From Lachnospiraceae bacterium (lineage in GTDB: Bacteria > Bacillota > Clostridia > Lachnospirales > Lachnospiraceae), in NCBI GenBank assembly GCA_017552985.1, contig JAFZNO010000034.1:1-34560 (forward strand): a stretch of DNA of 34,560 bases, written 5' to 3'. A model generated the notes under the pieces. The model had not been told where the DNA came from, ran no database searches, and saw nothing but the letters and a program-made list of their open reading frames with translations. The position numbers and the translations under genes are program-made. Each line of letters begins with the position of its first letter. Within the stretch, counting starts at the first letter, position 1. Below, one piece after another: positions 1 through 34,560 of the stretch.

Positions 1-46
1 GCGTGCCATGCGACGTGGGCGTGCCATGCGACGTGGGCGTGCCATG
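1..46. repeat. 18-bp tandem repeat at the left window edge (about 2.6 copies)
   Basis: An 18-base unit GCGTGCCATGCGACGTGG occurs at 1-18 and 19-36, and its first ten bases recur at 37-46. The array probably continues beyond the window on the left. Each full unit carries one ACGT. It lies upstream of the first ArsA-like gene. It is in frame with that gene, but the coding start is placed downstream at 167, so the repeat is taken as intergenic. Function unknown. Confidence 0.8.
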
Positions 47-72
47 CAGCCCGTTCCTCGTTACACTCGGAA

Positions 73-90
73 TCGCAGACAAGTCTGCGA
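73..90. repeat. Perfect 8-bp inverted repeat upstream of the first ArsA-like gene
   Basis: TCGCAGAC at 73-80 and GTCTGCGA at 83-90 are exact reverse complements separated by AA. No T-run follows, so it is not a convincing intrinsic terminator. It may be an operator or part of the intergenic repeat that begins at the window edge. Only the symmetry is directly supported. Confidence 0.5.
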
Positions 91-166
91 CGTTGGCACG
101 TCACTGACACTGCGCAAGATAAAAAAACATAGTTACGGGATAAGTTACTCGAAAGGAGATACAAGA

Positions 167-1411
167 ATGGGAAGAATTTATATATTTACGGGAAAAGGCG
201 GCGTGGGAAAGAGCAGCGTGGCTGCGGCACACGCCATCAAGAGCGCCGAGGAGGGCAAGAAGACCTTGCTTGTCAGCACGGACATGGCGCATAATCTCGG
301 GGATATTTTTGAGAAGCACCTGGGAAAGGAGCCGGAGGAAGTGTTGCCCAATTTGGATGCTTATGAGATTGATCCGGATCACGTCATGGCGAAAGATTAC
401 GCGGAGATCATGGATTACGTCAGCCGCCTCATCTCAGATTCAGGAGTGGTTGACATACAGGACGTGGGTATGATTCCGGGGATGGAGGATCTGTTTTCCC
501 TTTTGAAGATTGCGGAGATTTACCACAGTGGCGAGTATGAGCGGATCTTTGTGGACTGTGCGCCCACGGGGGAGACGCTTTCCCTCCTGAAATTCCCGGA
601 GCTGTTGTCTTGGTATATGGAAAAGCTCTTTCCCATCGGCAAGATTGGGATACGGATGCTCTCGCCCATATCTAAGACCGTGTTCAAGGTGGAGATGCCC
701 AATAAAAACGCGCTGAGTGAGATCGAAAAACTATACCTAAAGCTCACGGAACTGCAAGACCTCCTAAAGGACCGGGAGATCACGAGCGTGCGGATCGTGA
801 CGACGCCGGAGAAGATGGTGATCGAAGAGACAAAGCGCAATTACATGTATCTGAACCTTTATAATTTCAACGTGGACGGGCTTTACGTCAACCGCATTTT
901 GCCCGAGAGTGCCGATAACCCGTTCTTCGACGGTTGGAGAAAGCTGCAGAAGGAATACCTGGCATATATCAAGGAATGCTTTTCTGCATTGCCGATCTAC
1001 GAGATTCCATGGTATGACGAGGAATTAAAAGGCGCGGATAACGTCCGCAGGATCGTGCGGGACGTGTTGAATGGAAGGAGTAACTGCTGCGGAAACGTGC
1101 GGTACGGGTTAGCCGGAGAGGATAACGAGCATGCCATAAAGCATGACGTAACTGACGTGTTCGAAACTAGGATATTGACGGAGCGTGAAACGTTTCAGGC
1201 AGTGGACGACGGGTATGAACTCAAGGTATTCATGCCGGGCGCGGAAAAGGAGGAGATCGATCTCTTCCAGTCGCCGACGGACGTTGTGATCAAAATGGGG
1301 AATTTTAAGAGGAACGTGCCACTGCCGAACGTGCTGCGGAAATATACCGTTTCAAGAGCAAAGTATGAAGGAGATACACTGCACATTCTTTTTGAAAAAG
1401 AAGAGGTTTAA
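167..1411 (+). CDS. ArsA/Get3-family ATPase with C-terminal HSP20-like domain (copy 1)
   Basis: A 414-residue P-loop ATPase of the ArsA/Get3 (TRC40) class. The deviant Walker A motif GKGGVGKSS is at residues 9-17, a switch I-like segment STDMAHNLGD follows (the family norm is DPAH), and the switch II-like segment is DCAPTGETL. After a linker, roughly residues 345-412 resemble the ArsA-associated HSP20-like domain. The linker carries vicinal cysteines C307 and C308. The ATG at 167 was chosen over upstream in-frame starts because AAAGGAGA at 153-160 is well placed and the protein then begins directly at the P-loop strand. Family members energise arsenite export or deliver tail-anchored membrane proteins. 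No arsB, arsD or arsR is visible here, so the substrate is unknown. A homologous ATPase lies two genes downstream, and the two may pair as the A1 and A2 halves of classical ArsA do. Confidence 0.9.
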   Translation: MGRIYIFTGKGGVGKSSVAAAHAIKSAEEGKKTLLVSTDMAHNLGDIFEKHLGKEPEEVLPNLDAYEIDPDHVMAKDYAEIMDYVSRLISDSGVVDIQDVGMIPGMEDLFSLLKIAEIYHSGEYERIFVDCAPTGETLSLLKFPELLSWYMEKLFPIGKIGIRMLSPISKTVFKVEMPNKNALSEIEKLYLKLTELQDLLKDREITSVRIVTTPEKMVIEETKRNYMYLNLYNFNVDGLYVNRILPESADNPFFDGWRKLQKEYLAYIKECFSALPIYEIPWYDEELKGADNVRRIVRDVLNGRSNCCGNVRYGLAGEDNEHAIKHDVTDVFETRILTERETFQAVDDGYELKVFMPGAEKEEIDLFQSPTDVVIKMGNFKRNVPLPNVLRKYTVSRAKYEGDTLHILFEKEEV

Positions 1412-1476
1412 GGCGATTTGCTTAAGTGATCAAAAGAACGGCAGTGACGGGAATGTGTCAGAATGGAGGAACTTAT

Positions 1477-1752
1477 ATGAGAAAAGAGTACGCCAGAAGA
1501 GTAAGAAAGGCGATGGAATATCAGAAGAAGGCAGTGATGACTTTGCTGCCGGAAAGCATGGAAGGGCATCTGGAAGTGATCGGGGGAGAGGTCCGGAAGA
1601 TGATGCTGGAATTGGCAGTGGAGGCGTTCCGGGATTGTAAGGAATCCGATCTGTGCAAGGAATTATTCGGATGCGGCGGAATTAAAGATGAGATAACGGG
1701 CTCAGAGAAGAATGACAAAGAATCCAAGGTAAAGAAGGTTAATATTTCGTGA
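1477..1752 (+). CDS. Small conserved-looking protein between two ArsA-like ATPases
   Basis: A 91-residue protein that I do not recognise. The start at 1477 is chosen for GGAGGA at 1465-1470, six bases upstream. An earlier in-frame start at 1426 lacks such a site. The N-terminal half is basic and then helical (MRKEYARRVRKAMEYQKKAV), without a signal peptide or membrane segment. Three cysteines sit at a constant spacing, C54, C60 and C66 (C-x5-C-x5-C), followed by a polar, lysine-rich tail. It lies 65 bases after the first ATPase gene and 122 bases before the second, all on one strand, so co-expression is likely. A role as partner or metal chaperone of the ATPases is inference from context and cysteine spacing only. 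Confidence 0.7.
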   Translation: MRKEYARRVRKAMEYQKKAVMTLLPESMEGHLEVIGGEVRKMMLELAVEAFRDCKESDLCKELFGCGGIKDEITGSEKNDKESKVKKVNIS

Positions 1753-1874
1753 GTTGGTCCTGCGACAGAAACATACCGTTTGCTGACAGGCAGGGATCGA
1801 AAGAGAAGCAGAAGAAAAACGCATAGCAAAACATCAGAAATGAAACGTAAGGAACGTAGAAAGGAAATTGCATC

Positions 1875-3029
1875 ATGAGAGTGATCATATATACGGGTAA
1901 GGGCGGCGTTGGAAAGACCAGCATGGCGGCAGCCAGCGCATGTAAAATTGCAAAGGACGGGAAAAAGGTCCTGGTCATGAGCACGGATCCCGCACACAGC
2001 CTGGGGGATTCCTTTGATCAAAAGATTGGAAGGGAGCCAACGAAGGTCGCGGAGCGTCTGTATGCCATGGAGATCGATACGGTCTATGAAAGCGAGAGAA
2101 GTTGGGGGAGGATCAGCGCTTATATGAAAAGGCTTCTCACGGCCAAGGGCGGTGCAGGGATCGAGGCAGAGGAGTTGCTAGTTTTCCCGGGGCTGGAAGA
2201 ATTGTTTTCGATGTTTAAGATATTGGACGTTTACGAGAGCGGGGAATATGACGTGCTAATCGTAGACTGCGCGCCCACGGGAGAAACGCTGGCGCTGCTC
2301 AAATATCCGGAAAGATTGTCAGGCCTGATCAAGAAGGTTCTGCCGATGAAGAAAATGGGCGTGAAGGTGGTGGGCCCCGTGGTGGAGAAGACCATGAAGA
2401 TCCCCATGCCGGGCGAGGATATTTTTGATGACGTGGAGTATCTCATGGAAAAGATGGAGCGCCTGCAAAAACTACTCCTGAACAAGGACGTGGTGAGTCT
2501 TCGCGTTGTGACGACGCCGGAAAAGATCGTGATTAGTGAGGCCAAGAGGAATTTCACCTGTCTCTATTTGTATCATTATAACGTGGACGCTGTCATCGTA
2601 AATCACGTGTACCCGCAACATGCGATGGAGGGATATTTTGGAAAGTGGGTAAAGCTCCAGGAGGAAGGACTAAAGGAGATCCGGGAGAGCTTTAGTGAGG
2701 TCCCGATCTTTTATCTGGAGCTCCAAAAGGACGAACTGCGGACATTGGAGAGATTGCAGGGAGTGGGAGAGATTCTCTTTCAGAATCAGGATCCCAAGGC
2801 TATTTTGTTCCGGAAAGAGATCTACGTCGTGGATGCAAAGGAAGGCGTTTTGAAGGTTTATCTGCCCTTTGCCGACAAGGAGGATCTGCGCCTCGAGCAG
2901 GATCACAACGAGGTGATCCTGGGAGTCAGGAATGAGATCCGCAAATTCCAGGTTCCTGCGCAGTTTGCGCAAAAGGAGATTCAGGGAGCGAAGTTTGAAG
3001 AGGGGTATCTGAGAATTCAGTTTATATAA
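1875..3029 (+). CDS. ArsA/Get3-family ATPase with C-terminal HSP20-like domain (copy 2)
   Basis: A 384-residue paralogue of the ATPase encoded at 167. It has the Walker A motif GKGGVGKTS near residues 9-17, the canonical switch I segment STDPAHSLGD and the switch II-like segment DCAPTGETL. A C-terminal stretch from about residue 310 (EIYVVDAKEGVLKVYLPF onward) matches the HSP20-like domain pattern. It lacks the vicinal Cys pair of copy 1, and its switch I is canonical where copy 1 has Met for Pro. The pair may therefore be functionally asymmetric. AAGGAA at 1861-1866 precedes the ATG. The protein is predicted to be cytosolic with no membrane segment. The absence of ars transport genes leaves arsenic export unsupported. 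Targeting of tail-anchored proteins, or a chaperone function, is possible but not shown by the sequence. Confidence 0.9.
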   Translation: MRVIIYTGKGGVGKTSMAAASACKIAKDGKKVLVMSTDPAHSLGDSFDQKIGREPTKVAERLYAMEIDTVYESERSWGRISAYMKRLLTAKGGAGIEAEELLVFPGLEELFSMFKILDVYESGEYDVLIVDCAPTGETLALLKYPERLSGLIKKVLPMKKMGVKVVGPVVEKTMKIPMPGEDIFDDVEYLMEKMERLQKLLLNKDVVSLRVVTTPEKIVISEAKRNFTCLYLYHYNVDAVIVNHVYPQHAMEGYFGKWVKLQEEGLKEIRESFSEVPIFYLELQKDELRTLERLQGVGEILFQNQDPKAILFRKEIYVVDAKEGVLKVYLPFADKEDLRLEQDHNEVILGVRNEIRKFQVPAQFAQKEIQGAKFEEGYLRIQFI

Positions 3030-3059
3030 ACAAGAAGATGAGGCATTTTCAGTACCGGG

Positions 3060-3088
3060 TTGAAATAAATAAAGACGAATGATATTAT
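3060..3088 (+). promoter_or_regulatory. Candidate sigma-A promoter for the sigma/anti-sigma genes
   Basis: TTGAAA at 3060-3065 and TATTAT at 3083-3088 are separated by 17 bases, in an AT-rich gap 41 bases before the sigma-factor start. An imperfect palindrome (ATGATATTAT near 3079, AATAATCAT near 3092) overlaps the -10 side and could be an operator. Prediction from sequence only. Confidence 0.45.
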
Positions 3089-3128
3089 ATAAATAATCAT
3101 ATAATGCCTAGATTGCGAGGAATTCATA

Positions 3129-3665
3129 ATGCTTATTTTTATCTCTGCAATAGATGAACCAGAGATTCGGTCCAGACTGGAGAAGTTATATGAATTGTAT
3201 GAGCAGGAAATGCATCGTCAGGCTTTTAATGTATTGCATGACGAAAACGATGCAGAAGACGCTGTGCAAAATGCTTTTTTTAGAATCTGGAAAAGCTTAG
3301 ATAAGCTACGGGATTTAGGAGATAATGAAATAAAATGGTATGTCATTCGCGCAGCAATAAATGCGGCAATTGATATATATCGCAAAAAAAAGGAGAGGTG
3401 GCAAAAGGAGGAGGCATATGACGAAAATGTTTCCTATTTTCGATCTGAAAATTCAGGCAGTGGCAACCATGGACTTTTTGAGAGGATAGCGGAATTACCC
3501 GACAGGGAAAGAGATGTTCTCATGCTAAAATACGTTTATGGTTTTCAGTATAAGGAGATGGCGAAAATATTGGAAATCTCCACGGAAACCGTAAAGAAGA
3601 CATTGTTTCGTGCCAAAGATAAACTCGAGAAACTGTGTAGGGAGGAGGGGCTTTACAATGACTGA
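3129..3665 (+). CDS. ECF-type RNA polymerase sigma factor (sigma-70 family)
   Basis: A 178-residue sigma factor with only regions 2 and 4. Region 2 spans about residues 20-85, with NDAEDAVQNAFFRIWKSL typical of region 2.1-2.2. Region 4 spans about 115-170, with the recognition-helix context YKEMAKILEISTETVKKTLF. GAGG at 3117-3120 precedes the ATG by eight bases. The 3' end overlaps the next gene by eight bases, the usual arrangement of an ECF sigma factor with its membrane-bound regulator. The gene is visibly more AT-rich than its neighbours. It also lacks the xAC-GTx codon-pair habit of the rest of the window: four of its five Asn/Asp/Tyr-Val pairs use T. That suggests a different recent history, perhaps transfer. 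The target promoters cannot be inferred. Confidence 0.9.
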   Translation: MLIFISAIDEPEIRSRLEKLYELYEQEMHRQAFNVLHDENDAEDAVQNAFFRIWKSLDKLRDLGDNEIKWYVIRAAINAAIDIYRKKKERWQKEEAYDENVSYFRSENSGSGNHGLFERIAELPDRERDVLMLKYVYGFQYKEMAKILEISTETVKKTLFRAKDKLEKLCREEGLYND

Positions 3666-4509: not shown

Positions 4510-6693
4510 ATGTCGAAAAGATTTCTAAGTATTTTATTGCTTGCGCTCACGATATTGCTCGCTGGCTGCGCCGGGAGAGGGAAAGTGGATGAGATTAGTA
4601 CGGCATCTGGGGAGGGAGAGATTATTCCCTCCCTTGTTGGCGAGGACTGGCAGGATAATTCCTTGGATCCTTATTCGGCAGATTTTATCAGGCCCCTGAA
4701 ATATGCGGAGCCGGAAGGAGCCCTTCATGGAGGGGCGGAGCAATTCTTCTTGGGTAAAGACAGGGCGTTTGCGTTTAAAAAACATCTTTTCGAGGAAACG
4801 GGGAATTCTTGGGATGAACTCAAAGCGCTTACGGAAAAAGGGAGCGAACAATCCTTCCGGCTGAACTTTTGGGCAGACCGAACGAATCAGGCATGGGTGG
4901 TCGGAAGCTTTTTTAACAATAATCATTGCATGATGATGGACGTGGAAGCGGATGAGGAGGAAAACATACGATACCGATTCTTTGAGACGGATGAGAACAT
5001 GCAGGTTCTAAGGCAATTCTACGTGGAAGGATTTGCCCAAAAGGAATATGAGTTTCCGAGCCGGATTTTAGTGGATGCTGACGGTAACGTTCACGTCACG
5101 ACGTCTCGCAATTCGGATGATACGCAGCGATATTACGTCATCTCATCCGATGGAACGGTTGCGACAATGCTGTATCAGAAACAGACCGCAGAGCGCGAGA
5201 TAAAGCTTTTTTACCTGTATGACGGACGGGTAGGACTGTACGCTGACAAGCAGTTGTTGGTGGCAGACGTGAAATCAAAGAGGACACAGGTCATCGCGGA
5301 ATTCAAACAGGAATACAAGGCCTGTGTATTGTGGGATGCAAGCACGCTGCTTTATGCGGATGACGAGGGATTACATCGAAGTAATCTTTCAGAAGGCGAC
5401 GCGGAGACAATCTATCTTTGGAAGAATCACGGCATTACGTGCTCAAAGGTTGTGGATCTGCGGCTTTCCGAAAATCGTGAAATAGCATTGCTGTATATGG
5501 CCGGGGGCGGAGTCGAATACGTGAAGATTAGGCCAACAACGGAAGAGGTTACGGTTATAAAAATTGAGTTTGCTACGTCTGCATCATCAAGTCAAAAATA
5601 TCAGGCGGCAGCCATGGCATTTAATAAAGCATACCCGGCATGGCACGTTGACGTCAAAGAATATAAGAGAAATGATACGGCGCTGTTAACGAAACTGATT
5701 GCCGGGGATGGGCCGCAGTTAATTGATTCTTTCTTGGTGGAGTTTAGCGAACACAAGACCTTGTGGGAACCGATGGAGGCATTTTATAAGCAAATCGATT
5801 TTGAATGCATCCCGGAGGCGCTGGAATTTGGAAAGATAGACGGTACTTTATATGGCGTGGTGACGGATTTTTACGTTAACACGATGGTAACGATGGCGCA
5901 GACACCAGATCAATGGGATTATGAAACGTTTTTGGATTGCCTGACAGAGGATAAATATGCGAAAAAATCCGTATATAATCCAAACAACGGCAGCGATGGT
6001 TTCCCTTTTGCAGCCTTGTTCTTTCATGGGTTGGACCAGACTTTTTTGTATGACGCGGAGGATTGCGTTACCCAGTTTGACGGTAAGGCTTTCGCGAAGA
6101 TACTGCGTTTGGCGAAAAGCTATGACGTGAAGGAAAACCAAGCCGGCTTAGAGGATTTTCTCAAAGGAGAATCGTTATGTGCCGTTGTGGAAATAAGACG
6201 GCCGGAAGATCTGGCGACGCTTCGTATTGTAGGACAGGATCAGCTTCGATACATTGGTTTCCCTTCGCAGACGGGATCCGTACATTATCTGGTGGGATCA
6301 GATCCTTTATGTATCCGTGCAAACGCGACGGAGGAGGAAAAGCAGGCGGCGCGAGCCTTCTTGCGGTATCTTTTGGCAGATGTCATGACTGATCAATGGA
6401 GCGTGCGAAAGGATATCATAAAAAAACAAATGGAACGGATGGATGAATCTTCGGAATCAAATCTCGTAGGATTCCCGCAAGTTTCTTTTCAGGATCATTT
6501 GGATCTGGAAAAGGATATGGAAACATTGGATGAACTGCTGAAAAATGCAAAGCCCAAAAGCTATGCGCCAAAGGAATTGAGAGTCATTTTGATGGAAGAG
6601 GTAAGCGATTATTTGGATGGCAAAGTCTCAGAAAAAGAGCTTAAGAATCACTTGAAAAATCGCGTGGAATTGTATCTGAAAGAGCAAAAATAA
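4510..6693 (+). CDS. Lipoprotein with propeller-like N-terminal half and extracellular solute-binding domain
   Basis: A 727-residue protein with a type II signal peptide ending in LLAGC (lipidated Cys20). Residues of about 100-340 are rich in short beta-strand repeats with DADGN and SSDGT turns, consistent with a beta-propeller. From about residue 345 (IKIEFATSASSSQKYQAAAM) to 650 it resembles a family 1 extracellular solute-binding protein of ABC sugar importers. GGGGGAGA just before the ATG is a strong ribosome binding site. No ABC permease or ATPase genes adjoin it, so it may be a surface sensor or orphan binding protein rather than part of a complete importer. It follows the sigma/anti-sigma pair after 186 bases and could be a target of that sigma factor (inference). 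The ligand is unknown. Confidence 0.82.
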   Translation: MSKRFLSILLLALTILLAGCAGRGKVDEISTASGEGEIIPSLVGEDWQDNSLDPYSADFIRPLKYAEPEGALHGGAEQFFLGKDRAFAFKKHLFEETGNSWDELKALTEKGSEQSFRLNFWADRTNQAWVVGSFFNNNHCMMMDVEADEEENIRYRFFETDENMQVLRQFYVEGFAQKEYEFPSRILVDADGNVHVTTSRNSDDTQRYYVISSDGTVATMLYQKQTAEREIKLFYLYDGRVGLYADKQLLVADVKSKRTQVIAEFKQEYKACVLWDASTLLYADDEGLHRSNLSEGDAETIYLWKNHGITCSKVVDLRLSENREIALLYMAGGGVEYVKIRPTTEEVTVIKIEFATSASSSQKYQAAAMAFNKAYPAWHVDVKEYKRNDTALLTKLIAGDGPQLIDSFLVEFSEHKTLWEPMEAFYKQIDFECIPEALEFGKIDGTLYGVVTDFYVNTMVTMAQTPDQWDYETFLDCLTEDKYAKKSVYNPNNGSDGFPFAALFFHGLDQTFLYDAEDCVTQFDGKAFAKILRLAKSYDVKENQAGLEDFLKGESLCAVVEIRRPEDLATLRIVGQDQLRYIGFPSQTGSVHYLVGSDPLCIRANATEEEKQAARAFLRYLLADVMTDQWSVRKDIIKKQMERMDESSESNLVGFPQVSFQDHLDLEKDMETLDELLKNAKPKSYAPKELRVILMEEVSDYLDGKVSEKELKNHLKNRVELYLKEQK

Positions 6694-10307: not shown

Positions 10308-11159
10308 TTACTCGACCTCTTTCAGCATCTCCTCTAAGAAGGCGGGAAGATAGAAGGCTCCCTTGTGAAGACGCGTGGTGTAATATTTGGTGCGGAGGTG
10401 GAGACTGGTCCAACGCTCTGCGTCCATGTCGTCGATGGGGTGGTACTTCTTGCTGGCAAAGCCGAAGAGCCAGTAGCCTGCGGCGTAGGTGGGGATGTGG
10501 GCCTGGTACACGCGGCTGATGGGGAAGGTGCTTGCGATGCGCTTGTGGCTTCGCTTCATGGCCTCCGCATCCTCAGCGTAGAAGGGGCTTCCCTGCTGGT
10601 TTACCATGATGCCGTCTTCCTTCAAGGCCTTATAGCAGTTGCCATAGAATTCCTTGGTGAAGAGGCCCTCGGAGGGACCGAAGGGATCGTTGGAGTCAAC
10701 GATGATCAGGTCATATTTGTCCTCGCAGCGGCGCAGGAACTTCAGGCCGTTCTCGAAGAAAATGTTCACGCGCTTGTCATCCAGTCGGCATGCATTGCCG
10801 GGAAGGAATTGGCGGCAGACCTCCACCACCTGTTCGTCCATTTCCACAAGGTCGATGTTCTCCACCTGCTCAAAGCGGGTGAGTTCGCGCACGACGCCGC
10901 CGTCACCGGCACCGATCACCAGGACGTTCTTTATTCCGGGGTGCACTGCCATGGGAACGTGAACGATCATTTCATCATAAATGAATTCATCGCGTTCCGT
11001 CAGCATGATGTTGCCGTCGAGAACGAGAACGCGCCCGAATTCGGCCGTGTCCAGCACGTCGATCCGCTGATAATCGCTTTGCTTGCTGTATAATTGCTTG
11101 TTGACCCGGAGGCTGAATTTGACGTCCGGGGTATGAAATTCGCTAAACCAAAGTTCCAT
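10308..11159 (-). CDS. speE: Spermidine synthase-family aminopropyltransferase
   Basis: A 283-residue member of the polyamine aminopropyltransferase family, normal length. The SAM-binding-type motif GAGDGG is at 83-88, DLVEMDEQVVEVCR at about 103-116, and the catalytic segment DSNDPFGPSEGLF at 155-167. It would transfer an aminopropyl group from decarboxylated SAM to putrescine. AGGAGG sits six bases before the ATG inside the palindrome AGGAGGTCCTCC. No S-adenosylmethionine decarboxylase gene (speD) lies in the window, while a complete carboxyspermidine route does. The enzyme may use speD encoded elsewhere, or make another product such as spermine or thermospermine. It follows a 390-base structured repeat region and may be uncoupled from the genes upstream of it. 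Confidence 0.9.
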   Translation of the reverse strand: MELWFSEFHTPDVKFSLRVNKQLYSKQSDYQRIDVLDTAEFGRVLVLDGNIMLTERDEFIYDEMIVHVPMAVHPGIKNVLVIGAGDGGVVRELTRFEQVENIDLVEMDEQVVEVCRQFLPGNACRLDDKRVNIFFENGLKFLRRCEDKYDLIIVDSNDPFGPSEGLFTKEFYGNCYKALKEDGIMVNQQGSPFYAEDAEAMKRSHKRIASTFPISRVYQAHIPTYAAGYWLFGFASKKYHPIDDMDAERWTSLHLRTKYYTTRLHKGAFYLPAFLEEMLKEVE

Positions 11160-11206
11160 GGAGGACCTCCTGATATATGAAAATAAAAATCAATAAATCA
11201 CTTAAT

Positions 11207-11485
11207 AAATCACCCGGATTGCTTCGCGCGTTGCGCTCGCGCAATCCGCAAACAACATTCGGAATCCGCTGATTTGCTTCGCAAATCGCTACTTCCTCAT
11301 GTTGTTTAGGGTCTCAAATCGCACACGTCCCTTTCGTGCAAGCACGAGGGCCGTGCACGGCTTGAGTTATGTTGGTGTATAGTTAAATCACCCGGATTGC
11401 TTTGCGCGTTGCGCTCCCGCAATCCGCAAACAACATTCGGAATCCGCTGATTTGCTTCGCAAATCGCTACTTCCTCACGTTGTTT
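11207..11485. repeat. Tandemly duplicated structured intergenic repeat (two units, 178-bp period)
   Basis: Bases 11207-11307 recur at 11385-11485 with three differences over about 101 bases. Each unit contains nested inverted repeats: GGATTGC with GCAATCC, GATTTGC-TTC-GCAAATC, and AACAACAT with ATGTTGTT (broken by one change in unit 2). Each unit ends in a further large hairpin whose arms differ between copies (about 11310-11366, and 11488-11547). This island fills most of the 390-base gap 11160-11549 between the metallopeptidase gene and speE, where no coding sequence is evident. Near its speE-proximal edge AATAAATCAC occurs twice (about 11192 and 11204). Nested symmetry plus duplication suggests a REP- or MITE-like element or a structured RNA. 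Confidence 0.8.
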
Positions 11486-11487
11486 TT

Positions 11488-11547
11488 GGTCTCAAGGTAT
11501 GCAAGCTCCTTTCGTGCAAGCACGAGGAGCTTGCATACTTTGAGACC
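11488..11547. repeat. Long near-perfect hairpin immediately after the metallopeptidase gene
   Basis: The left arm starting GGTCTCAAGGTATGCAAGCT at 11488 pairs with the right arm ending GCTTGCATACTTTGAGACC at 11547. There is one mismatch, a two-base TT bulge and an AA loop, giving about 28 paired bases. On the - strand it begins two bases after the stop codon of the metallopeptidase gene. A run of A rather than T follows it there, so it is not a textbook intrinsic terminator. It could protect the 3' end of the mRNA or act as a processing site. Confidence 0.75.
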
Positions 11548-11549
11548 TG

Positions 11550-26238: not shown

Positions 26239-27516
26239 ATGAAAGTATTGATCGTGGGTGGCGGCGGCCGTGAACATGCGATCGCAGTCAGCATGAAGAA
26301 GAGCAAGAGAGTTGAAAAGCTCTACTGCGTGCCCGGAAATGCCGGGATCGCGCAGATCGCAGAGTGTGAACCCTCCATCGGCGTGATGGAATTTGACAAG
26401 ATCGCACAATATGCGAAGGAGAAAGCCGTAGATTTGGTATTCGTGGCACCGGATGATCCGCTGGTTGGCGGTCTGGTGGACGTGCTTGAGGCAAACGGAC
26501 TTCGCACCTTTGGACCGAATAAGGCAGCGGCGATCCTTGAGGGAAGCAAGGCCTTCTCTAAGGATCTGATGAAGAAGTACAATATTCCCACGGCTGCTTA
26601 CGAGAACTTTGACGATCCCGAGAAGGCCCTGGAATATCTTGAGACGGCGGACATGCCCATCGTTCTCAAGGCTGACGGCCTGGCACTCGGCAAGGGCGTT
26701 CTGATCTGCAATACCTTGGAGGAGGCGAAAGCCGGCGTCAAGGAGATCATGATGGACAAGCATTTCGGCAGCGCCGGAAACAAGATGGTCATTGAGGAAT
26801 TCATGACGGGACGCGAGGTGTCAGTGTTATCCTTCGTGGACGGCAAGACGATCCGCATCATGAGCTCCGCTCAAGACCACAAGAGGGCGAAGGACGGTGA
26901 CCAGGGTCTGAACACGGGCGGCATGGGAAATTTCTCCCCGACCCCGTTCTATACCAAAGAGGTCGACGAGTTCTGCAGAAAATACATTTATCAGGCGACC
27001 GTGGATGCCATGGCGGCAGAGGGAAGGCCTTTCAAGGGCGTTATTTTCTTCGGATTGATGCTGACTCCCAAGGGACCGAGGGTTCTGGAGTTCAACGCAA
27101 GATTTGGCGATCCTGAGGCGCAAGTGGTCCTTTGCAGAATGAAGAATGATCTTATGGACGTGGTGGATGCCTGCATCGACGGAACGCTGGATCAGGTAGA
27201 GCTGGAGTTTGAAGACAAGGCTGCGGTTTGCGTGGTGCTTGCATCTGACGGATATCCTGTTTCCTACAAGAAGGGCTTCGAGATCAAGGGCCTCGAGAAC
27301 TTCGAAGGTAAGGAAGATTACTATTGCTTCCATGCCGGCAGCAAGTTTGACGAGCAGGGAAGGATCGTGACCAACGGCGGCAGAGTGCTTGGCGTGACTG
27401 CCAAGGGCGCAACGCTGAAGGAAGCCAGGGCGAAGGCATATGAAGCCACGAAATGGGTGGATTTCGAGAATAAGTATATGAGAACGGACATCGGCAAGGC
27501 AATCGACGAAGCATAA
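26239..27516 (+). CDS. purD: Phosphoribosylamine--glycine ligase (GAR synthetase)
   Basis: A 425-residue ATP-grasp enzyme joining glycine to phosphoribosylamine. The N-terminal MKVLIVGGGGREHAI is the PurD signature. The ATP-grasp body includes PIVLKADGLALGKGVLI, and the substrate and metal region includes DHKRAKDGDQGLNTGGMG and LEFNARFGDPEAQ. Length is typical. GAGGTGG lies just upstream of the ATG. It is the last purine gene of the cluster, 51 bases after purN. The remaining IMP pathway genes (purF, purL, purC, purB, purH) are not in this window. Confidence 0.96.
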   Translation: MKVLIVGGGGREHAIAVSMKKSKRVEKLYCVPGNAGIAQIAECEPSIGVMEFDKIAQYAKEKAVDLVFVAPDDPLVGGLVDVLEANGLRTFGPNKAAAILEGSKAFSKDLMKKYNIPTAAYENFDDPEKALEYLETADMPIVLKADGLALGKGVLICNTLEEAKAGVKEIMMDKHFGSAGNKMVIEEFMTGREVSVLSFVDGKTIRIMSSAQDHKRAKDGDQGLNTGGMGNFSPTPFYTKEVDEFCRKYIYQATVDAMAAEGRPFKGVIFFGLMLTPKGPRVLEFNARFGDPEAQVVLCRMKNDLMDVVDACIDGTLDQVELEFEDKAAVCVVLASDGYPVSYKKGFEIKGLENFEGKEDYYCFHAGSKFDEQGRIVTNGGRVLGVTAKGATLKEARAKAYEATKWVDFENKYMRTDIGKAIDEA

Positions 27517-27596: not shown

Positions 27597-29102
27597 ATGG
27601 CGGGGAAAGCACAGGGGATGAAAATTTGGCGAAAGTTGATCGTAATGATCGCATTTGCATTCGCGCTTGTGATCTTTGCGGATGGTTTTAAGACCGTAAG
27701 TAAGGCAGAATCCGGCACGACCAACAATGCCGTAAACATGCGTAAGACTCCCAGTAAGAACGGAGATTTGGTTAAGAAGCTTGAAAAAGGAACGGCGGTT
27801 GAACTGGGGAATCTGGTTGACGGCAAGGACGGAGACGGAAAGAAGTGGTATGAGGTTACGGTAGGCGGTTCCAGCGGCTACATTCGTTCCGACCTGATCT
27901 CTAAGGGAAGCACCACGACTGTTTCTGACGGAAGCGAAGTTCAGACTGGAACGGAAGAGGACGTTACTCCGGTAAGCGCCACCGTGGCTGGCAGCAATAC
28001 CGTAAGGGTCCGCACCAGTGCATCAACGACTACGAGCAACAACATTCTGTGCACGATCAACAAGGGAACGGAAGTTACCGTGATCGCAAAGACCATCGGT
28101 TCTGACAAGAAGACCTGGTACAAAGTAAAACTGACGGTGGAAGGCAGGGACGCGACCGGTTACATCCGCAGCGATTACCTGGTGATCTCCGGTGAGGTTA
28201 AGCCTTATGAGGTTGATACCGTAACGACGGATCCCGTGGAAGAAATCACTCCCTCAGAGCAGGATACGAAGCCGGAAACCAAGCCCGTCGTGACCGAAAA
28301 GCGTTATGAGACGAAGCTTGTGAACGACGTGTGGTGGCTTCAGGACATCGAGCAGGGACAGCAGTACAAGATCGAAGACATCTTTAGCGCGGCTGACAAG
28401 CTCCAGGAACAGTATGAAAAGGCAAATAAGAAAGCGAAGTCCAGCAAGGGTTGGATGATTTTCTTCCTGTTGGTTGCACTTGCAGCCTGTGGTGCCGTTG
28501 GATATTTGATCTTCAGACTGAAGGAAGTAAAAGAAGAGGCGTTTATCGCATCCATCGAAAATAACACTCCGAGAAGAACGGCAGAAAGACCCAGAAGCGA
28601 CGCGAGAACGCAGAGCGTATCCCGTGACAGGCCTGCCATCAGCAGGGACGGACTTGAGCCTCGCCGCAAGGAAGAGGGCCAGCGTCCTGCAAATGGCCAG
28701 AGATCCACTGGAAACCGTCCTCAGGGCCAGAAGCCCGCTCAGCAGCCTGCACAGGGCCAGAAGCCTGCTCAGCAGCCTGGACAGGGCCAGAGACCCGCAC
28801 AGCCCGGACAGAGACCTGCACAGCCCGGACAGGGCCAGAGACCCGCGCAGCCTGGACAGGGACAGAGACCCGCACAGCCCGGACAGAGACCCGTGCAGCC
28901 TGGTCAGGGACAGAGACCCGCGCAGCCTGGACAGGGTCAGAGGCCCGCGCAGCCCGGACAGGGCCAGAGACCTGCAGGCGAACAGCCCGCACAGAGGCCT
29001 GCGGCACCTCAGCAGGCACCTGCAAACAATCGTCCCAAGAATTTCGTGCAGGACAACGATGACATGGAGTTCGAATTCCTCAATTGGGACAGCGATGAAT
29101 GA
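27597..29102 (+). CDS. Membrane protein with two SH3b domains and a Pro/Gln/Arg-rich repeat tail
   Basis: A 501-residue protein. An N-terminal hydrophobic segment at about 13-28 acts as signal peptide or anchor. Two bacterial SH3 domains follow at about 43-103 (NAVNMRKTPSKNGDLVKKL to SGYIRSDL) and 126-197 (NTVRVRTSASTTT to GYIRSDYLV). Then come a Pro/Glu/Thr linker and a second membrane helix at about 285-306. The basic C-terminal region contains about eleven copies of a GQRPAQP/GQGQRPAQP-type repeat (376-465), and the protein ends acidic (DDMEFEFLNWDSDE). The SH3b domains, probably outside the cell, may bind peptidoglycan, with the repeat tail probably inside. GGAAGG upstream supports the ATG. 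It lies between purD and a terminator. Function unknown beyond cell-wall association. Confidence 0.8.
   Translation: MAGKAQGMKIWRKLIVMIAFAFALVIFADGFKTVSKAESGTTNNAVNMRKTPSKNGDLVKKLEKGTAVELGNLVDGKDGDGKKWYEVTVGGSSGYIRSDLISKGSTTTVSDGSEVQTGTEEDVTPVSATVAGSNTVRVRTSASTTTSNNILCTINKGTEVTVIAKTIGSDKKTWYKVKLTVEGRDATGYIRSDYLVISGEVKPYEVDTVTTDPVEEITPSEQDTKPETKPVVTEKRYETKLVNDVWWLQDIEQGQQYKIEDIFSAADKLQEQYEKANKKAKSSKGWMIFFLLVALAACGAVGYLIFRLKEVKEEAFIASIENNTPRRTAERPRSDARTQSVSRDRPAISRDGLEPRRKEEGQRPANGQRSTGNRPQGQKPAQQPAQGQKPAQQPGQGQRPAQPGQRPAQPGQGQRPAQPGQGQRPAQPGQRPVQPGQGQRPAQPGQGQRPAQPGQGQRPAGEQPAQRPAAPQQAPANNRPKNFVQDNDDMEFEFLNWDSDE
28722..28991 (+). repeat. In-frame tandem repeats encoding the PGQGQRPAQ tail
   Basis: Imperfect units of about 18-27 bases (CAGCCCGGACAGGGCCAGAG type) are repeated across this span within the SH3b gene. 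All unit lengths are multiples of three, so copy-number change by slippage or recombination would alter tail length without a frameshift. Confidence 0.85.
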
Positions 29103-29141
29103 TCAAAAACTGAACGTCTTGTAAAATAGTTATGAACTTTC

Positions 29142-29190: not shown

Positions 29191-29216
29191 AGATGCCATG
29201 AAAGGAGGAGGCCCTC

Positions 29217-29588: not shown

Positions 29589-29591
29589 GGA

Positions 29592-32036
29592 ATGCAGTCA
29601 CAGTCATTTACTGAAAAGGCAAGGACGGCCCTGGCCCAGGCGGCAAAGTGCGCAGGGAGTTTGAATCAGGGCTACGTCGGAACGGAGCATATCCTGGCCG
29701 GTCTTTTGAAGGAAGGCACGGGCGTGGCAGCCAAGGTGCTTACGGAAAACGGCGTGGAGCTAGACAAGCTTTTGGACATGATCCGCGAGCTGATCGCTTT
29801 CGAGAATGGCACGTCGGTGAGAGACCGCGAGGGATATTCCCCGAGAGCACAGAGAATTTTGGAAGAGGCCCAGACACAGGCCAAGAGATTTGGACAGAAG
29901 GAAGCAGGAACGGAGCATTTGCTCCTGGCGATCATTAAGGAGGGCGAGAACGTTGCCGTCCGGCTGATGAACGCCATGAACGTCAATCTCCAAAAGGTTT
30001 ACGTTGAAACGCTGCAGGCCATTGGACAAGACGGAAACCTTTACAAGGAGGATCTTGGAAGGAAGAATCAGGGAAAGGGAAAGACCTCGACCCTGGAACA
30101 ATACAGCCGTGATCTGACGGCGCTGGCACGGGAGGGAAAGTTGGATCCCGTGATCGGCAGGGAAGAGGAGATCCGCAGGGTGATCCAGATCCTGAGCCGC
30201 CGCACGAAGAACAATCCCTGTCTGATCGGTGAACCCGGCGTCGGAAAGACTTCCGTGGTGGAAGGTCTGGCGCTACGCATCGTATCCGGCGACGTGCCCT
30301 TTACGGTGCAGAACAAGAGGGTATTAACGCTGGATCTTTCCGGCATGGTGGCGGGAAGTAAGTACCGCGGTGAATTCGAAGAGAGAATCAAGAAGGTGAT
30401 CAAGGAAGTCATCGATGACGGCAACGTGGTGCTTTTCTTGGATGAGATCCACACGCTGATCGGTGCAGGCGGAGCAGAGGGTGCCATCGACGCATCCAAC
30501 ATTCTGAAGCCTTCCCTGGCAAGAGGCGAGCTTCAGCTCATCGGTGCCACTACGATCGCCGAGTACCGGAAATACGTGGAGAAGGACGCGGCCCTGGAGC
30601 GAAGGTTCCAGCCCGTCAACGTGGAGGAGCCCACCCAGGAGGAAGCCATTGCGATCCTTGAAGGCGTCAAGGGCAGGTATGAGGAACATCACCGCGTGAC
30701 GATCACGCATGAAGCAGTGGAAGCGGCCGTAAGGCTGTCAGAGCGGTACATTAATGACCGTAATCTGCCGGATAAGGCGATCGACCTCATTGATGAAGCC
30801 GCTGCCAGCGCGAGACTTCAGGTTATGGAGATCCCCCAGAAGGAAAAGGATCTCATGGCGGAGATCAAGAAGAAGGACCAGCAGATCGAGCGTTCCATCC
30901 GCATGGAGGTATTCTCACAGGCAGCTGAGCTGAAGCAACAGCAGGCACAGCTCCTGAAGAAATATGACAAGATGGTGGCGCAGCGGGAAGCCCAGGAGAG
31001 GGAAAAACGCTACGCAGTCGGTGAGGAAGACATCGCCAGGGTGGTTGCCGTTTGGACGAAGATCCCCGTGACGAAGCTTGCGGAGAAGGAGAGCGAAAAG
31101 CTCTTAAAGCTTGAGAGCATTCTTCATAAGCGCGTCATTGGGCAGGAGGAGGCCGTGAAGGCCGTGGCAAAGGCCATGAGGCGAGGCAGGGTTGGATTGA
31201 AGGATCCCAACCGTCCCATCGGTTCCTTCTTCTTCCTGGGACCTACCGGCGTCGGAAAGACGGAGCTTTCCAAGGCACTGGCCGAGGCAATGTTTGGCTC
31301 GGAGGATGCCATGATCCGCGTTGACATGTCAGAGTACATGGAGGGTCATTCGGTATCCAAGATGATTGGTTCGCCGCCAGGCTACGTCGGATTTGAGGAG
31401 GGCGGACAGCTTTCCGAAAAGGTGCGCAGGAATCCTTATTCCGTGGTGCTCTTCGACGAGATCGAGAAGGCACATCCGGACGTGTTTAACATCCTGTTAC
31501 AGGTGCTTGATGACGGTCACGTGACGGATTCCAAAGGCCGTAAGGTTAGCTTCAAGAATACGATCCTGATCATGACCTCCAACGCTGGCGCACAGAGGAT
31601 CGTGGATCCCAAGAATCTGGGCTTTGCGGCGGAAAAGAATGAGCAGAAGGATTACGAGCGAATGAAATCGGCGGTGATGGAGGAAGTGAAGAAGAACTTC
31701 AAGCCGGAATTCATCAACCGAATTGACGAGATCATTGTTTTCCATCAGCTGAATCAGGAGAACATGAAGGAGATCGTAAACCTTCTTGCAAAGAACCTGA
31801 CAAAGCGGTGCGAGACGCAGATGGAGATCCACCTGACGCTGACCGCGGCGTTAAAACAACATCTCGTAGACAAGTATTCTGACGCGAAGATGGGGGCAAG
31901 ACCCTTAAAGAGAGCGATACAGTCCGTTGTTGAGGATGCACTTGCAGAGGAGATCCTTGCCAAGAGAGTACAGCCTGGAGACACCGTGAGCGCAGGATTT
32001 AAGGGAGACAAGATCACTTTTCACGTTAAGAAATAG
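29592..32036 (+). CDS. clpC: ATP-dependent Clp protease ATPase subunit ClpC
   Basis: An 814-residue Hsp100/AAA+ unfoldase that feeds proteins to ClpP. Two N-terminal Clp repeats span about 1-145. The first AAA+ module has Walker A GEPGVGKT at 213-220 and LFLDEIHT at 281-288. A short middle coiled region, typical of ClpC rather than ClpB, lies at about 412-475. The second module has Walker A GPTGVGKT at 550-557. The ClpP-docking tripeptide LGF is at 676-678 in VDPKNLGFAA. TAAGGA precedes the ATG. In many Firmicutes clpC follows ctsR, mcsA and mcsB. Here only a GntR regulator precedes it, so control by CtsR and delivery by McsB are not supported locally. Confidence 0.95.
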   Translation: MQSQSFTEKARTALAQAAKCAGSLNQGYVGTEHILAGLLKEGTGVAAKVLTENGVELDKLLDMIRELIAFENGTSVRDREGYSPRAQRILEEAQTQAKRFGQKEAGTEHLLLAIIKEGENVAVRLMNAMNVNLQKVYVETLQAIGQDGNLYKEDLGRKNQGKGKTSTLEQYSRDLTALAREGKLDPVIGREEEIRRVIQILSRRTKNNPCLIGEPGVGKTSVVEGLALRIVSGDVPFTVQNKRVLTLDLSGMVAGSKYRGEFEERIKKVIKEVIDDGNVVLFLDEIHTLIGAGGAEGAIDASNILKPSLARGELQLIGATTIAEYRKYVEKDAALERRFQPVNVEEPTQEEAIAILEGVKGRYEEHHRVTITHEAVEAAVRLSERYINDRNLPDKAIDLIDEAAASARLQVMEIPQKEKDLMAEIKKKDQQIERSIRMEVFSQAAELKQQQAQLLKKYDKMVAQREAQEREKRYAVGEEDIARVVAVWTKIPVTKLAEKESEKLLKLESILHKRVIGQEEAVKAVAKAMRRGRVGLKDPNRPIGSFFFLGPTGVGKTELSKALAEAMFGSEDAMIRVDMSEYMEGHSVSKMIGSPPGYVGFEEGGQLSEKVRRNPYSVVLFDEIEKAHPDVFNILLQVLDDGHVTDSKGRKVSFKNTILIMTSNAGAQRIVDPKNLGFAAEKNEQKDYERMKSAVMEEVKKNFKPEFINRIDEIIVFHQLNQENMKEIVNLLAKNLTKRCETQMEIHLTLTAALKQHLVDKYSDAKMGARPLKRAIQSVVEDALAEEILAKRVQPGDTVSAGFKGDKITFHVKK

Positions 32037-32099
32037 TTTTAAAATGGAATAAAACACCACAAGAAAAAGCCAAGAAAGGACGTTTAGGAGGAAAAAGAA

Positions 32100-32513
32100 A
32101 TGGCAGCAGTAAAGGAATTGATCCGCAGTGAGGCAAACGGAAGCATCAGCTTTGGTAATCATGAGCTGAGCGCAAAGTCAAAACTAGAGGATTTTAAGCA
32201 CGGCGGAGACCTTTTCAAGGTTAAGACTTTTAATGAGATCACAAAGCTGGAGAAGAACGGCGCGTTTTTGTATGAGTCCGTTCCCGGCACCAGCGTGACT
32301 TCTTTCCTTGAGAAGGAGGATCAGGTGGAATTTACCGTTGAGGGTGACAAGGATGCACAGATCACCATCGGACTGACGGAGGATGCTGATTACGAAGTAT
32401 TCGTAGACGGCGAGAGCATTGGCATCATGAACTCAGGCCTCGGCGGAAAGCTGTCCTTGAGCGTTGAGCTCGCTGCCGCTGATCAGGTAAACGTAAAGAT
32501 CGTTAGACAGTAA
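32100..32513 (+). CDS. Unknown 137-residue protein between clpC and radA
   Basis: A soluble protein without signal peptide, membrane helix or cysteine. It opens with MAAVKELIRSEANGSISFGN and contains KVKTFNEITKLEKNG and YESVPGTSVTSF. The C-terminal half is strand-rich (VEFTVEGDKDAQITIGL, then YEVFVDGESIGIMNSGLGGK, then LSLSVEL), suggesting a beta-sandwich. TTTAGGAGG lies just upstream of the ATG. From memory, similar Clostridia proteins have been labelled endosialidase chain in databases. No enzymatic motif here supports that and I do not adopt it. It is 63 bases after clpC and nine before radA, all on one strand, so co-expression with the stress and repair genes is likely. Confidence 0.75.
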   Translation: MAAVKELIRSEANGSISFGNHELSAKSKLEDFKHGGDLFKVKTFNEITKLEKNGAFLYESVPGTSVTSFLEKEDQVEFTVEGDKDAQITIGLTEDADYEVFVDGESIGIMNSGLGGKLSLSVELAAADQVNVKIVRQ

Positions 32514-32522
32514 GGGGTTAAA

Positions 32523-33911: not shown

Positions 33912-33935
33912 CTTACGGGTGAGGAGGTGGCAGGC

Positions 33936-34262
33936 ATGACGTATGAAGACATTGTTTACATGGTGCGGGCTACGTTTGAAAACGCGGATGCCAGAAAGGT
34001 ATTGGAGCATGTGGCGATCCAGGTGAACGTTACGGGAGAGGGTGCCGGGATTTTTTACGTGGAAATAGCAGAGAGGCAGATTTGCGTGGAACCCTATGAT
34101 TATTATGACAGGGATTGCCTGCTGGAAATTCCGAGCAACGTTGTTCAGGAATTGTGTGAAAGAAAGTATACGTTAAGAAGCTCCATAGAGAACGGATTAG
34201 TGAAATTTTACGGCGATGAACGCAAGATGAATCTGTGTTTAAGCAAGGTAAAAGTCCGCTGA
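33936..34262 (+). CDS. SCP2-like small protein
   Basis: A 108-residue protein. The ATG at 33936 is preferred over the in-frame GTG at 33927 because GGAGG at 33923-33927 then has an eight-base spacing and lies outside the gene. The pattern (MTYEDIVYMVRATFENADAR, VAIQVNVTGEGAGIFYVEIA, VEPYDYYDRDCLLEI, then a short FYGDERKMN end) resembles sterol carrier protein 2-type domains, which bind hydrophobic ligands. In bacteria their ligand is rarely known. It starts 24 bases after radA and probably belongs to the same transcript. The family call rests on general pattern only. Confidence 0.65.
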   Translation: MTYEDIVYMVRATFENADARKVLEHVAIQVNVTGEGAGIFYVEIAERQICVEPYDYYDRDCLLEIPSNVVQELCERKYTLRSSIENGLVKFYGDERKMNLCLSKVKVR

Positions 34263-34337
34263 ACGATCAAAATGGCGAAAAACGTAAAAAAATCTTAAAA
34301 AAATGCCCATTTTTCGTAATTTTTTTGAATATTTGTA

Positions 34338-34366
34338 TTGCGAAATCTTTACAAATTTGGTATGCT
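34338..34366 (+). promoter_or_regulatory. Extended -10 promoter of the HU gene
   Basis: TTGCGA at 34338-34343 and TATGCT at 34361-34366 are 17 bases apart. The TGG just before the -10 box provides a TGn extended -10 element. Four A- or T-tracts lie directly upstream at 34286-34326. The leader to the HU start is about 85 bases. Confidence 0.5.
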
Positions 34367-34456
34367 AGTACCTAAGAAAGGGCATAAGCCTTTTTGAACA
34401 AAGATTGCTGGGCACGCAGAGTGCTCGAAATAGCAAAAGAAGGAAGGAGATCCATT

Positions 34457-34560
34457 ATGAACAAGACAGAACTTGTAGCAGCAGTAGCAGCAAAGGCTGA
34501 GATTACCAAGAAGGATGCAGCAGCAGCGGTTGAGGCAGTTTTCGAAGTAATTGGTGATGA
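34457..34560 (+). CDS. HU-family histone-like DNA-binding protein, partial (cut by window end)
   Basis: The first 34 codons read MNKTELVAAVAAKAEITKKD and then AAAAVEAVFEVIGDE, the helical N-terminal dimerisation part of HU/IHF proteins. The DNA-binding beta-arm lies beyond the window. AAGGAGA at 34444-34450 is the ribosome binding site. HU bends and compacts DNA and is usually highly expressed. The gene has its own promoter and upstream A-tracts. Confidence 0.93.
   Translation, partial: MNKTELVAAVAAKAEITKKDAAAAVEAVFEVIGD

Follow-up and report, generated by a model that had tools for sequence, protein, structure and literature searches.

Genes of the window and a bias before GT

The window analysed here is the whole 34,560-nt stretch of contig JAFZNO010000034.1 from Lachnospiraceae bacterium GCA_017552985.1, a genome labelled G000 below. 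Its relevant features are as follows:

1..34560, no strand: VYGT footprint (synonymous C favoured over T before GT unless T precedes), a genome-wide, strand-symmetric signature
8..1411, + strand: ArsA-family ATPase gene 1 (PF02374); NAY-GT 14/14 C, fully converted; the called start is probably too far upstream
1875..3029, + strand: ArsA-family ATPase gene 2 (PF02374); NAY-GT 7/7 C, fully converted
3129..3665, + strand: ECF sigma-factor gene (PF08281/PF04542); not converted
4510..6693, + strand: lipoprotein or solute-binding-protein-like gene (PF13416); NAY-GT 11/12 C
26239..27516, + strand: purD, as named in the initial annotation; NAY-GT 2/2 C, converted
29592..32036, + strand: clpC; NAY-GT 12/12 C, converted

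The initial annotation had counted C in 45 of 46 xAY-GTx codon pairs in five of these genes. Our recount returned 46 C and 1 T (C/T: ArsA gene 1, 14/0; ArsA gene 2, 7/0; lipoprotein gene, 11/1; clpC, 12/0; purD, 2/0), the lone T lying within the lipoprotein gene, and the accompanying Asp-Ala control came out as claimed (4 GAC, 4 GAT). Across 27 hand-listed genes of the window, NAY before GT is C at 143/152 sites (9 T), NAY before GC is 62 C and 74 T, and NAY before GA is 68 C and 133 T. On one strand of the window, ACGT occurs 181 times vs 176 for ATGT and ACAT together. The VYGT/ACRB sites of the ECF sigma-factor gene (GC3 0.40) comprise three converted and six unconverted, and this gene is probably a recent arrival still short of equilibrium; unconverted genes may serve more generally as flags of recent arrivals.

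The bias that had been noticed across the window is real and genome-wide. In a genome sample that joins the window to 20 other stretches (227 called genes in 322 kb), NAY-GT is C at 1208/1291 sites. A synonymous pyrimidine ahead of GT is C in 94 % of cases where A, C or G precedes it and in 52 % where T does. The bias had been proposed to be specific to the palindrome ACGT, a claim ruled out by equally extreme preferences for CCGT over CTGT (732/777) and for GCGT over GTGT (747/798); T is the sole preceding base at which the site is spared (TYGT, C at 515/993). Over-representation of ACGT against a Markov model, the check suggested initially, proved a weak test. The excess exists but is slight (observed/expected 1.10 in the window and 1.12 in the genome sample), in our opinion because the trinucleotides ACG and CGT are themselves inflated, and the effect is exposed by comparison with relatives rather than by Markov expectation.

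Strand symmetry, direction and lineage of the footprint

A search with the clpC of the window yielded 80 named loci from relatives, of which 71 reached 11 kb or more and entered the counts, nine shorter ones being left out. Fifteen of the 80 were hand-chosen as near relatives with similar GC3, so that the pooled comparison was not blind; the genus samples below serve as the wider control. Against these 15 loci the log-odds shift is 3.95 (z 28), which excludes chance. The C fraction at NYGT (own genome/relatives) is.94/.22 after A,.94/.55 after G,.94/.59 after C and.52/.43 after T. Before AT, a pyrimidine following A is C in.73 of cases here and.30 in the relatives, the shift at VTAT being weaker than that at VTGT. 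A strong preference at Y before AG or GG is present in the relatives too and therefore falls outside the finding.

The same shift appears on the opposite strand. Threonine ACG is favoured over ACA (own/relatives) at.92/.38 before T,.96/.69 before G,.92/.66 before C and.71/.59 before A; hence the complement of ATGT shifts most and that of TTGT least, as on the coding strand. The initial annotation's remark that ACGT is also frequent in noncoding DNA holds in the genome sample relative to congeners: noncoding AYGT is C at.60 vs.22 in 28 pooled congeners, while noncoding TYGT stands at.31 vs.29. The noncoding shift amounts to about half of the coding shift in log-odds, and in one genome that shares the footprint, G078, just 58/205 noncoding AYGT sites are C. 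These data bear on translational codon-pair selection, in which the ribosomes of the lineage would prefer NNC before GTN. Dependence on the next codon is indeed strong, and codon-context effects are present in all genomes counted (71 loci), but a preference of ribosomes would not extend to the other strand and to noncoding DNA, nor nearly vanish after T, and we find this the least credible of the readings considered.

The footprint is directional, with the first T of TGT replaced by C rather than the word being avoided. At fourfold xCN-GT sites, T falls from.18 in relatives to.035 here and C rises from.26 to.57, with A:G at about 1:3 throughout; at fourfold xGN-GT sites, A:G is.09:.09 here vs.10:.27 in relatives, with a similar difference before GC. 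When third sites differing between G000 and its relative G071 were polarised, C>T changes numbered 6/198 at VCGT vs 63/308 before GA, GC and GG, the complementary G>A changes 4/77 at ACG-B vs 13/90 at other NCG, and T>C changes at VTGT 1/1.

Selection on DNA words could take the form of ACGT or VCGT kept for modification or binding, or of VTGT avoided because it is cut, and the density of ACGT, 5.5 per kb here where the 28 pooled congeners have 1.1, speaks for such selection. Yet TGT is not avoided at cysteine codons, where the last base alone is free: the TGC fraction (own/relatives) is.61/.56 after A,.67/.59 after C and.65/.65 after G, and the largest change follows T (.68/.45). Because CCGT, GCGT and VCAT are favoured too, the ACGT-specific modification under selection offered initially as an option is disfavoured, and we regard word selection in any of these forms as very improbable.

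The footprint was found in four of 33 genus genomes sampled, our own included (NAY-GT C fraction: G000.94, G071.93, G106.77, G078.74). Outside these four, the fraction is.38 in the sister genome G089 and.00–.46 in the 28 other congeners, and the four are the only VYRT context outliers in the genus sample. In G078 and G106, AYGT is weaker (.74,.77) than CYGT and GYGT (.86–.91). The footprint is lineage-specific and has one evolutionary origin, the four species, a small group of gut bacteria, sharing it by descent; consequently, every other gene that the branch gained or lost correlates with it just as well.

A solitary methyltransferase and an unlinked Vsr endonuclease

The initial annotation had suggested searching for a C5-methyltransferase with a Vsr-type endonuclease beside it. 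Both genes are present in 4/4 clade genomes, but they are not adjacent, lying on contigs C108 (methyltransferase) and C121 (vsr) in G000 and about 107 kb apart on one contig of G106 (G106:C13). Neighbours are conserved within the clade, and the clade genes have no internal stops and dN/dS of.03–.10 vs G000, with dS near saturation for G078 and G106. In G115 and G073, the murG locus has no methyltransferase gene. The sister G089 is 87 % complete, with murG not found and a weak MutL match, and its lack of both genes is therefore soft.

The methyltransferase (358 aa) matches PF00145 (243.8 bits, cut-off 22) and TIGR00675 (218 bits, cut-off 100.65), and its translation contains GGPPCQSYS, PCQ being the active-site motif of C5-methyltransferases. 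It is solitary, with no restriction gene beside it at 4/4 clade loci. Phage and plasmid homologues (5 and 10 records, E up to 1e-60) were set aside, all having <60 % identity. Three genomes outside the clade, G504, G795 and G725, carry methyltransferases 63–65 % identical to it beside a restriction-like gene whose product, on our reading of its sequence, has a PD-(D/E)XK look; a close Vsr was not found in these three. HpyCH4IV, MaeII and TaiI are ACGT enzymes, and the three genomes appear to hold putative type II restriction-modification systems at this site. There, ACGT is nearly absent (14 seen against 408 expected on both strands of the pooled samples; observed/expected.04 in G504,.08 in G795, none in G725), whereas CCGT and GCGT are ordinary (CYGT/GYGT C fraction.37–.55), marking ACGT as the candidate methylase site. 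We infer from these natural experiments that the clade enzyme also recognises ACGT, although avoidance of restriction may account for the depletion in the three relatives no less than deamination. ACGT occurs at 0.05 per kb in these three genomes, about 1 in the 28 congeners and 3.1–5.5 in the four clade genomes, a range of up to roughly 100-fold across samples that offers a natural experiment on how cytosine methylation and its repair affect a genome. The contrast bears on methylation of ACGT alone, without T:G-specific repair, as the source of the pattern. The methylase is indeed in 4/4 clade genomes, but where a related methylase occurs with no close Vsr, in the three genomes just described, ACGT is instead lost, and the CCGT and GCGT shifts would be left unexplained; this reading is extremely improbable.

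The Vsr-type T:G mismatch endonuclease (163 aa) matches PF03852 (93.5 bits, cut-off 27), TIGR00632 (120 bits, cut-off 97.85) and PDB 1cw0 (E 1.2e-14). It differs from E. coli Vsr in having Asp75 at the H64 equivalent and Glu and Lys at the equivalents of Cys66 and Cys117, cysteines that have a zinc role in the E. coli enzyme. The active-site set named in PMC12907096 is invariant in the four clade proteins (E36, D62, H80 and D111, equivalent to E25, D51, H69 and D97 in the numbering of the 1cw0 chain). The available text of PMC12907096 describes V.NgoAXIII and V.Nme18VIP as having Asp at H64, and by its sequence the clade protein would belong to this V.NgoAXIII/VsrA type. The footprint suggests that it nicks T:G mismatches in sequence context.

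Ten other congeners carry a Vsr with no context outlier among them (up to 20 kb each), and we rejected a genus-wide Vsr effect. Nor does NAY-GT flip (.04–.30) in ten more distant genomes with a 64–74 % Vsr, one of which, G442, has C at 29/33 GYGT sites. The ten congeneric carriers, together with the mutation-like, symmetric character and single origin of the footprint, favour some other change to replication or repair on the branch (polymerase, proofreading, T:G glycosylase or mismatch repair) that raised VTRT T:A to C:G, with Vsr and methylase as bystanders. We nevertheless think this unlikely: a tetranucleotide site that demands T at +2 and bars it at −1 resembles enzyme recognition, ACGT emerges independently as the inferred site of the clade methylase, and MutL, the mismatch-repair protein surveyed, is intact in 4/4 clade genomes, which also led us to reject mismatch-repair loss.

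A relaxed Vsr as the probable source of the footprint

It is likely, in our judgement, that T:G mismatches at VTRT end as fixed C:G pairs through very-short-patch repair by a relaxed Vsr. This best explanation is close to the initial suggestion that an ACGT methylase and a Vsr-like repair drive ATGT to ACGT: both genes and the near-absence of ACGT in the three relatives favour that suggestion, while the footprint is broader than it foresaw, comprising VTGT to VCGT and, more weakly, VTAT to VCAT. The solitary methyltransferase would methylate ACGT; the unlinked Vsr, judging by its family and the footprint, would nick beside the T of T:G in V-T-G-T and less well in V-T-A-T; and the T would be swapped for C, as in E. 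coli very-short-patch repair. If Vsr cannot distinguish deaminated 5-methylcytosine from a replication error, ACGT would be restored after deamination, and by the same indifference T:G replication errors at any VTGT would become fixed T-to-C changes and C-to-T loss would be blocked. VCGT would then be a near one-way sink, hence C at about 94 % of free sites. The shift at VYAT is not one to be foreseen from the methylase site.

A bolder version, to which we give even chances, is that Vsr works for the most part on ordinary replication errors at unmethylated VTRT and prevails there over normal mismatch repair, as a genome-wide directional rewriter. If so, a nicking repair enzyme acquired once would determine which synonymous codons and codon pairs a whole clade prefers, together with its oligonucleotide composition, in a bacterial counterpart of biased gene conversion. 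Already on the main reading, a repair enzyme and not the ribosome would most likely be the chief author of these codon choices, a caution that repair as well as translational selection can leave strong codon-pair bias. Genome sequence may likewise offer a means of reading the specificity of Vsr and methylase enzymes not yet characterised.

Among known systems, Dcm/Vsr of E. coli (CCWGG) likewise pairs a C5 methylase with Vsr, and T:G is repaired there in favour of G according to the available text of PMC9520237; its site is CTWGG rather than VTGT/ACGT, and its vsr gene adjoins the methylase gene. Caulobacter ScmA/VsrA likewise has a solitary C5 methylase, an unlinked Vsr-like protein and Asp at H64, but its site is YGCCGGCR, and the available text of PMC12907096 describes no comparable composition footprint. 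V.NgoAXIII of Neisseria gonorrhoeae is, in the available text of PMC6116569, an active Vsr of a second, multispecific group that accepts T:G in all contexts; activity of the clade protein is predicted, and the footprint here implies a VTRT preference. The putative systems of G504, G795 and G725 have a related methylase (63–65 % identical) but a restriction-like gene beside it in place of a close Vsr, with ACGT depleted there and enriched here. The literature searched, which covered few subscription papers, yielded no account of a Vsr tied to ACGT or of such a footprint. Vsr was reportedly proposed by Bhagwat and McClelland (1992) to alter the abundance of oligonucleotides in E. coli. Over 200 kb of the K-12 genome of that species, counted without a Vsr-less control, the C fraction is.92 at CYWGG,.74 at DYWGG and.58 at DYWGH, and C stands at 98/99 xCY-TGG sites.

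The C bias in the window, its genome and related genomes

The initial annotation held that a Val codon preceded by one for Asp, Asn, Tyr or His almost always forms an xAC-GTx pair; our recount of the same five genes (46 C, 1 T) bears this out, and the Asp-Ala control again divides evenly (4 versus 4). In 27 hand-listed window genes, codons ending in A plus C or T before a codon starting with GT (NAY-GT) carry C 143 times and T 9 times. The window lies on contig C64 of a 3.86-Mb genome in 137 contigs (G000), and a sample of approximately one-tenth of this genome (the window and 20 further stretches, 322 kb, 227 called genes) has C at 1208 of 1291 NAY-GT sites. The attribution of the bias to ACGT did not stand, since a preceding A is not required: in the same sample, C occupies 732/777 NCY-GT and 747/798 NGY-GT sites, and just 515/993 NTY-GT sites. 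The bias is properly described as C at V-Y-G-T (V being A, C or G).

Because codon-context bias occurs in every genome counted, relatives were used for comparison. Those closest among the named ones belong to the Lachnospiraceae, the nearest by ClpC being an uncultured Acetatifactor. Across 71 loci of at least 11 kb (of 80 fetched), the NAY-GT C fraction ranged from.01 to.67, and the log-odds of NAY-GT against all NAY sites was negative in 68 and at most +0.25 in the remaining three, versus +2.96 for the window; E. coli K-12 (50 kb) gave +0.08. Against 15 pooled relatives, the shift of Y before GT was 3.95 after A, 2.47 after G, 2.42 after C and 0.37 after T; the next largest, before AT, was 1.83, 1.63, 1.59 and 0.96 in the same order, with smaller shifts still before CT and TT and a median of −0.22 over all contexts. 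These shifts therefore define the target as the T of V-T-R-T, with G far better than A at +1; positions beyond it have little influence.

Within the genus, 61 genomes were searched and 33, including G000, were sampled for the footprint, which was found in four (G000, G071, G106 and G078).

C bias in the four footprint genomes, their sister genome and other congeners
Genome; ClpC identity to G000; NAY-GT C fraction, first sample; larger sample; noncoding AYGT with C
G000; –;.94; –; 338/567
G071; 100 %;.95;.93; 142/237
G106; 92 %;.82;.77; 122/304
G078; 93 %;.76;.74; 58/205
G089 (sister, genome incomplete); 86 %;.34–.38; –; 36/253
28 other congeners; –;.00–.46; –; 124/567 (pooled)

In an outlier scan of 64 contexts, every footprint genome stood out at AYAT, AYGT and CYGT; G000 and G071 were additionally flagged at GYGT, G000 also at CYAT, and a small number of YCG, YTG and YGG contexts deviated the other way. 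The other 29 genomes yielded a single flagged cell, in one genome. The footprint has one origin.

Strand symmetry, word avoidance and unconverted genes

Since VTGT reads ACAB on the opposite strand, a strand-symmetric process should raise ACG relative to ACA ahead of T, G and C but hardly ahead of A. Thr codons match this prediction: ACG over ACA before T/G/C is.92/.96/.92 in G000 and.38/.69/.66 in relatives, while before A it is.71, barely above the.59 of relatives. The shift extends to noncoding DNA (see table), defined as DNA outside simply made gene calls, which may still hold some coding sequence; it is about half of the coding shift in log-odds and weak in G078, and the TYGT C fraction is.31 in G000 and.29 in the 28 congeners.

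Avoidance of TGT after A, C or G predicts that Cys TGT should become TGC there. TGC fractions after A/C/G are.61/.67/.65 in G000 and.56/.59/.65 in relatives (after T,.68 and.45); Cys codons hardly switch, and avoidance was not supported. At fourfold xCN-GT sites, T goes from.18 in relatives to.035 and C from.26 to.57, with the A:G ratio kept (.10:.30 and.14:.43). At fourfold xGN-GT sites, A:G is.09:.09 versus.10:.27 in relatives, a difference not tied to GT because it is also seen before GC (.15:.15 versus.17:.32).

Substitutions between G000 and G071 (81 % identity at third positions) were polarised by G078 and G106 in 36 genes common to the four genomes. C>T changes occurred at 6/198 VCGT sites versus 63/308 sites before GA, GC or GG, and T>C at the one VTGT site available (1/1); on the complementary strand, G>A affected 4/77 ACG-B sites versus 13/90 other NCG sites. 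VCGT is protected and VTGT emptied.

Unconverted sites (296/4828) are overdispersed among genes, with 43 in five genes, including:
window 3129-3665, ECF sigma-factor gene, low GC at third codon positions (.40), VTGT/ACAB sites mostly unconverted
L015:17563-19998, Cas9 gene, GC at third positions.36, 11/27 sites unconverted
Each probably reached the G000 genome recently, and such clustering is what a time-dependent process should leave in newly arrived genes.

The methylase, its putative site and Vsr

C5 methyltransferases are present in 45 of the 61 genus genomes. The solitary methylase of the footprint genomes (85–98 % identical to the G000 copy) is flanked in all four by murG-like and TIGR01440-like genes (names read from translations). 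The murG locus obtained from five congeners gave no methylase match, and the flanking pair is directly adjacent, with no methylase between, in G115 and G073.

Two overlapping and incomplete sets, of 397 genomes from the family and 391 from the class, contained three genomes outside the clade with a 63–65 % identical methylase (G504, G795 and G725) and no close Vsr (a 29 % one in G504, none in the others). ACGT was seen/expected 6/167.5 times in G504 and 8/104 in G795 and was absent from G725 (both strands counted; sites are half). NAY-GT was C in 1/197, 2/71 and 0/69 cases, respectively, and CYGT and GYGT C fractions were.37–.55. A conserved gene (41–46 % identity to that of G504) adjoins the methylase in all three:
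L283:3375-4304, L327:2946-3782 and L329:3872-4705, restriction-like protein family, 278–310 aa, beside the putative ACGT methylase
The G504 protein had no Pfam or NCBIfam match; the gene is read as a putative restriction enzyme, and a small HTH-like ORF also lies near the methylase in two of the three. Near-total ACGT loss common to these genomes, together with the restriction-like neighbour, points to ACGT as the likely recognition site. ACGT loss is not unique evidence, as other palindromes are also depleted (CTAG and GGCC in these three and G770, GATC in G795 and G725, CGCG in G504, G725 and G770) and ACGT is low in several congeners that may or may not have this methylase; restriction avoidance and deamination are inseparable as its causes. 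G770, with a weaker methylase relative (48 %), has 28 ACGT seen against 87 expected and C at 3/72 NAY-GT sites. Compared with G504, G795 and G725, the clade lacks the restriction-like neighbour, has Vsr and shows a bias of reversed sign.

ACGT is depleted genus-wide (pooled observed/expected.56; 28 congeners, L165-L192). It is nearly lost, as judged by C at NAY-GT, in some genomes (G104, 0/54; G070, 0/29; two Lachnoanaerobaculum, L101 and L102, 1/85 and 1/88), suggesting other ACGT-directed systems.

Vsr (PF03852), a T:G mismatch endonuclease, occurs in 19 of the 61 genomes, including all four with the footprint; the proteins of G071, G078 and G106 are 79–95 % identical to that of G000, and the best outside proteins about 60–75 %. 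The preceding gene has identical first residues in all four and, in G000, encodes cNMP-binding and Na+/H+-antiporter domains. In G000, vsr is separated from the next conserved gene by a 789-aa sigma-factor-like gene (L022:11002-13368) that is absent in the other three. The vsr and methylase genes are unlinked and free of internal stops (dN/dS.03–.10). Vsr matches TIGR00632 and PDB 1cw0 and retains the E25, D51, H69 and D97 equivalents, with Asp at the H64 equivalent and non-Cys residues at those of Cys66 and Cys117. Asp at H64 is described for V.NgoAXIII, V.Nme18VIP and Caulobacter VsrA (PMC12907096), and V.NgoAXIII is reported active on T:G in all contexts (PMC6116569). Within the genus, ten further genomes with a Vsr showed no footprint in the outlier scan, and ten more distant carriers no NAY-GT flip; the vsr genes of the former may be young, mobile and of other specificity.

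Methylation of ACGT would create 5mC, which would deaminate to T:G, and a Vsr recognising T:G in V-T-R-T would restore C:G. The same Vsr would also ‘repair’ T:G mismatches that replication errors leave at unmethylated VTGT, turning T:A into C:G, and both actions would drive VYGT toward C. This gives a testable prediction for Vsr: it should strongly favour A, C or G over T at −1, and G over A at +1. E. coli has Dcm and Vsr, and Vsr has been proposed to alter oligonucleotide abundance there. Its C fractions (CYWGG.92, DYWGG.74, DYWGH.58; xCY-TGG 98/99; no Vsr-less control) indicate a partly relaxed site in the same style as the clade footprint. Both VSP repair and the combination of a solitary methylase and an unlinked Vsr have precedents; in the literature, partially covered, we found no report of an ACGT-linked methylase/Vsr pair, a footprint this strong or a comparison with and without Vsr.

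Other features of the window and genome

Two further features were recorded in the window:
11206-11379 and 11385-11555, (−) strand, a tandem pair of Clostridiales-1 RNAs (RF01699), 86 % similar at the DNA level
28724-28996, tandem repeat inside ORF 27597-29102, copy spacing mostly 27 or 21 nt
The RNAs lie upstream of a gene at 10308-11159 (−), read as spermidine-synthase-like. In the G000 sample, G071, G078, G106 and G089, GATC is enriched (observed/expected 1.12–1.34;.95 in 28 congeners) and GGCC is depleted (.66–.77;.72 in congeners).
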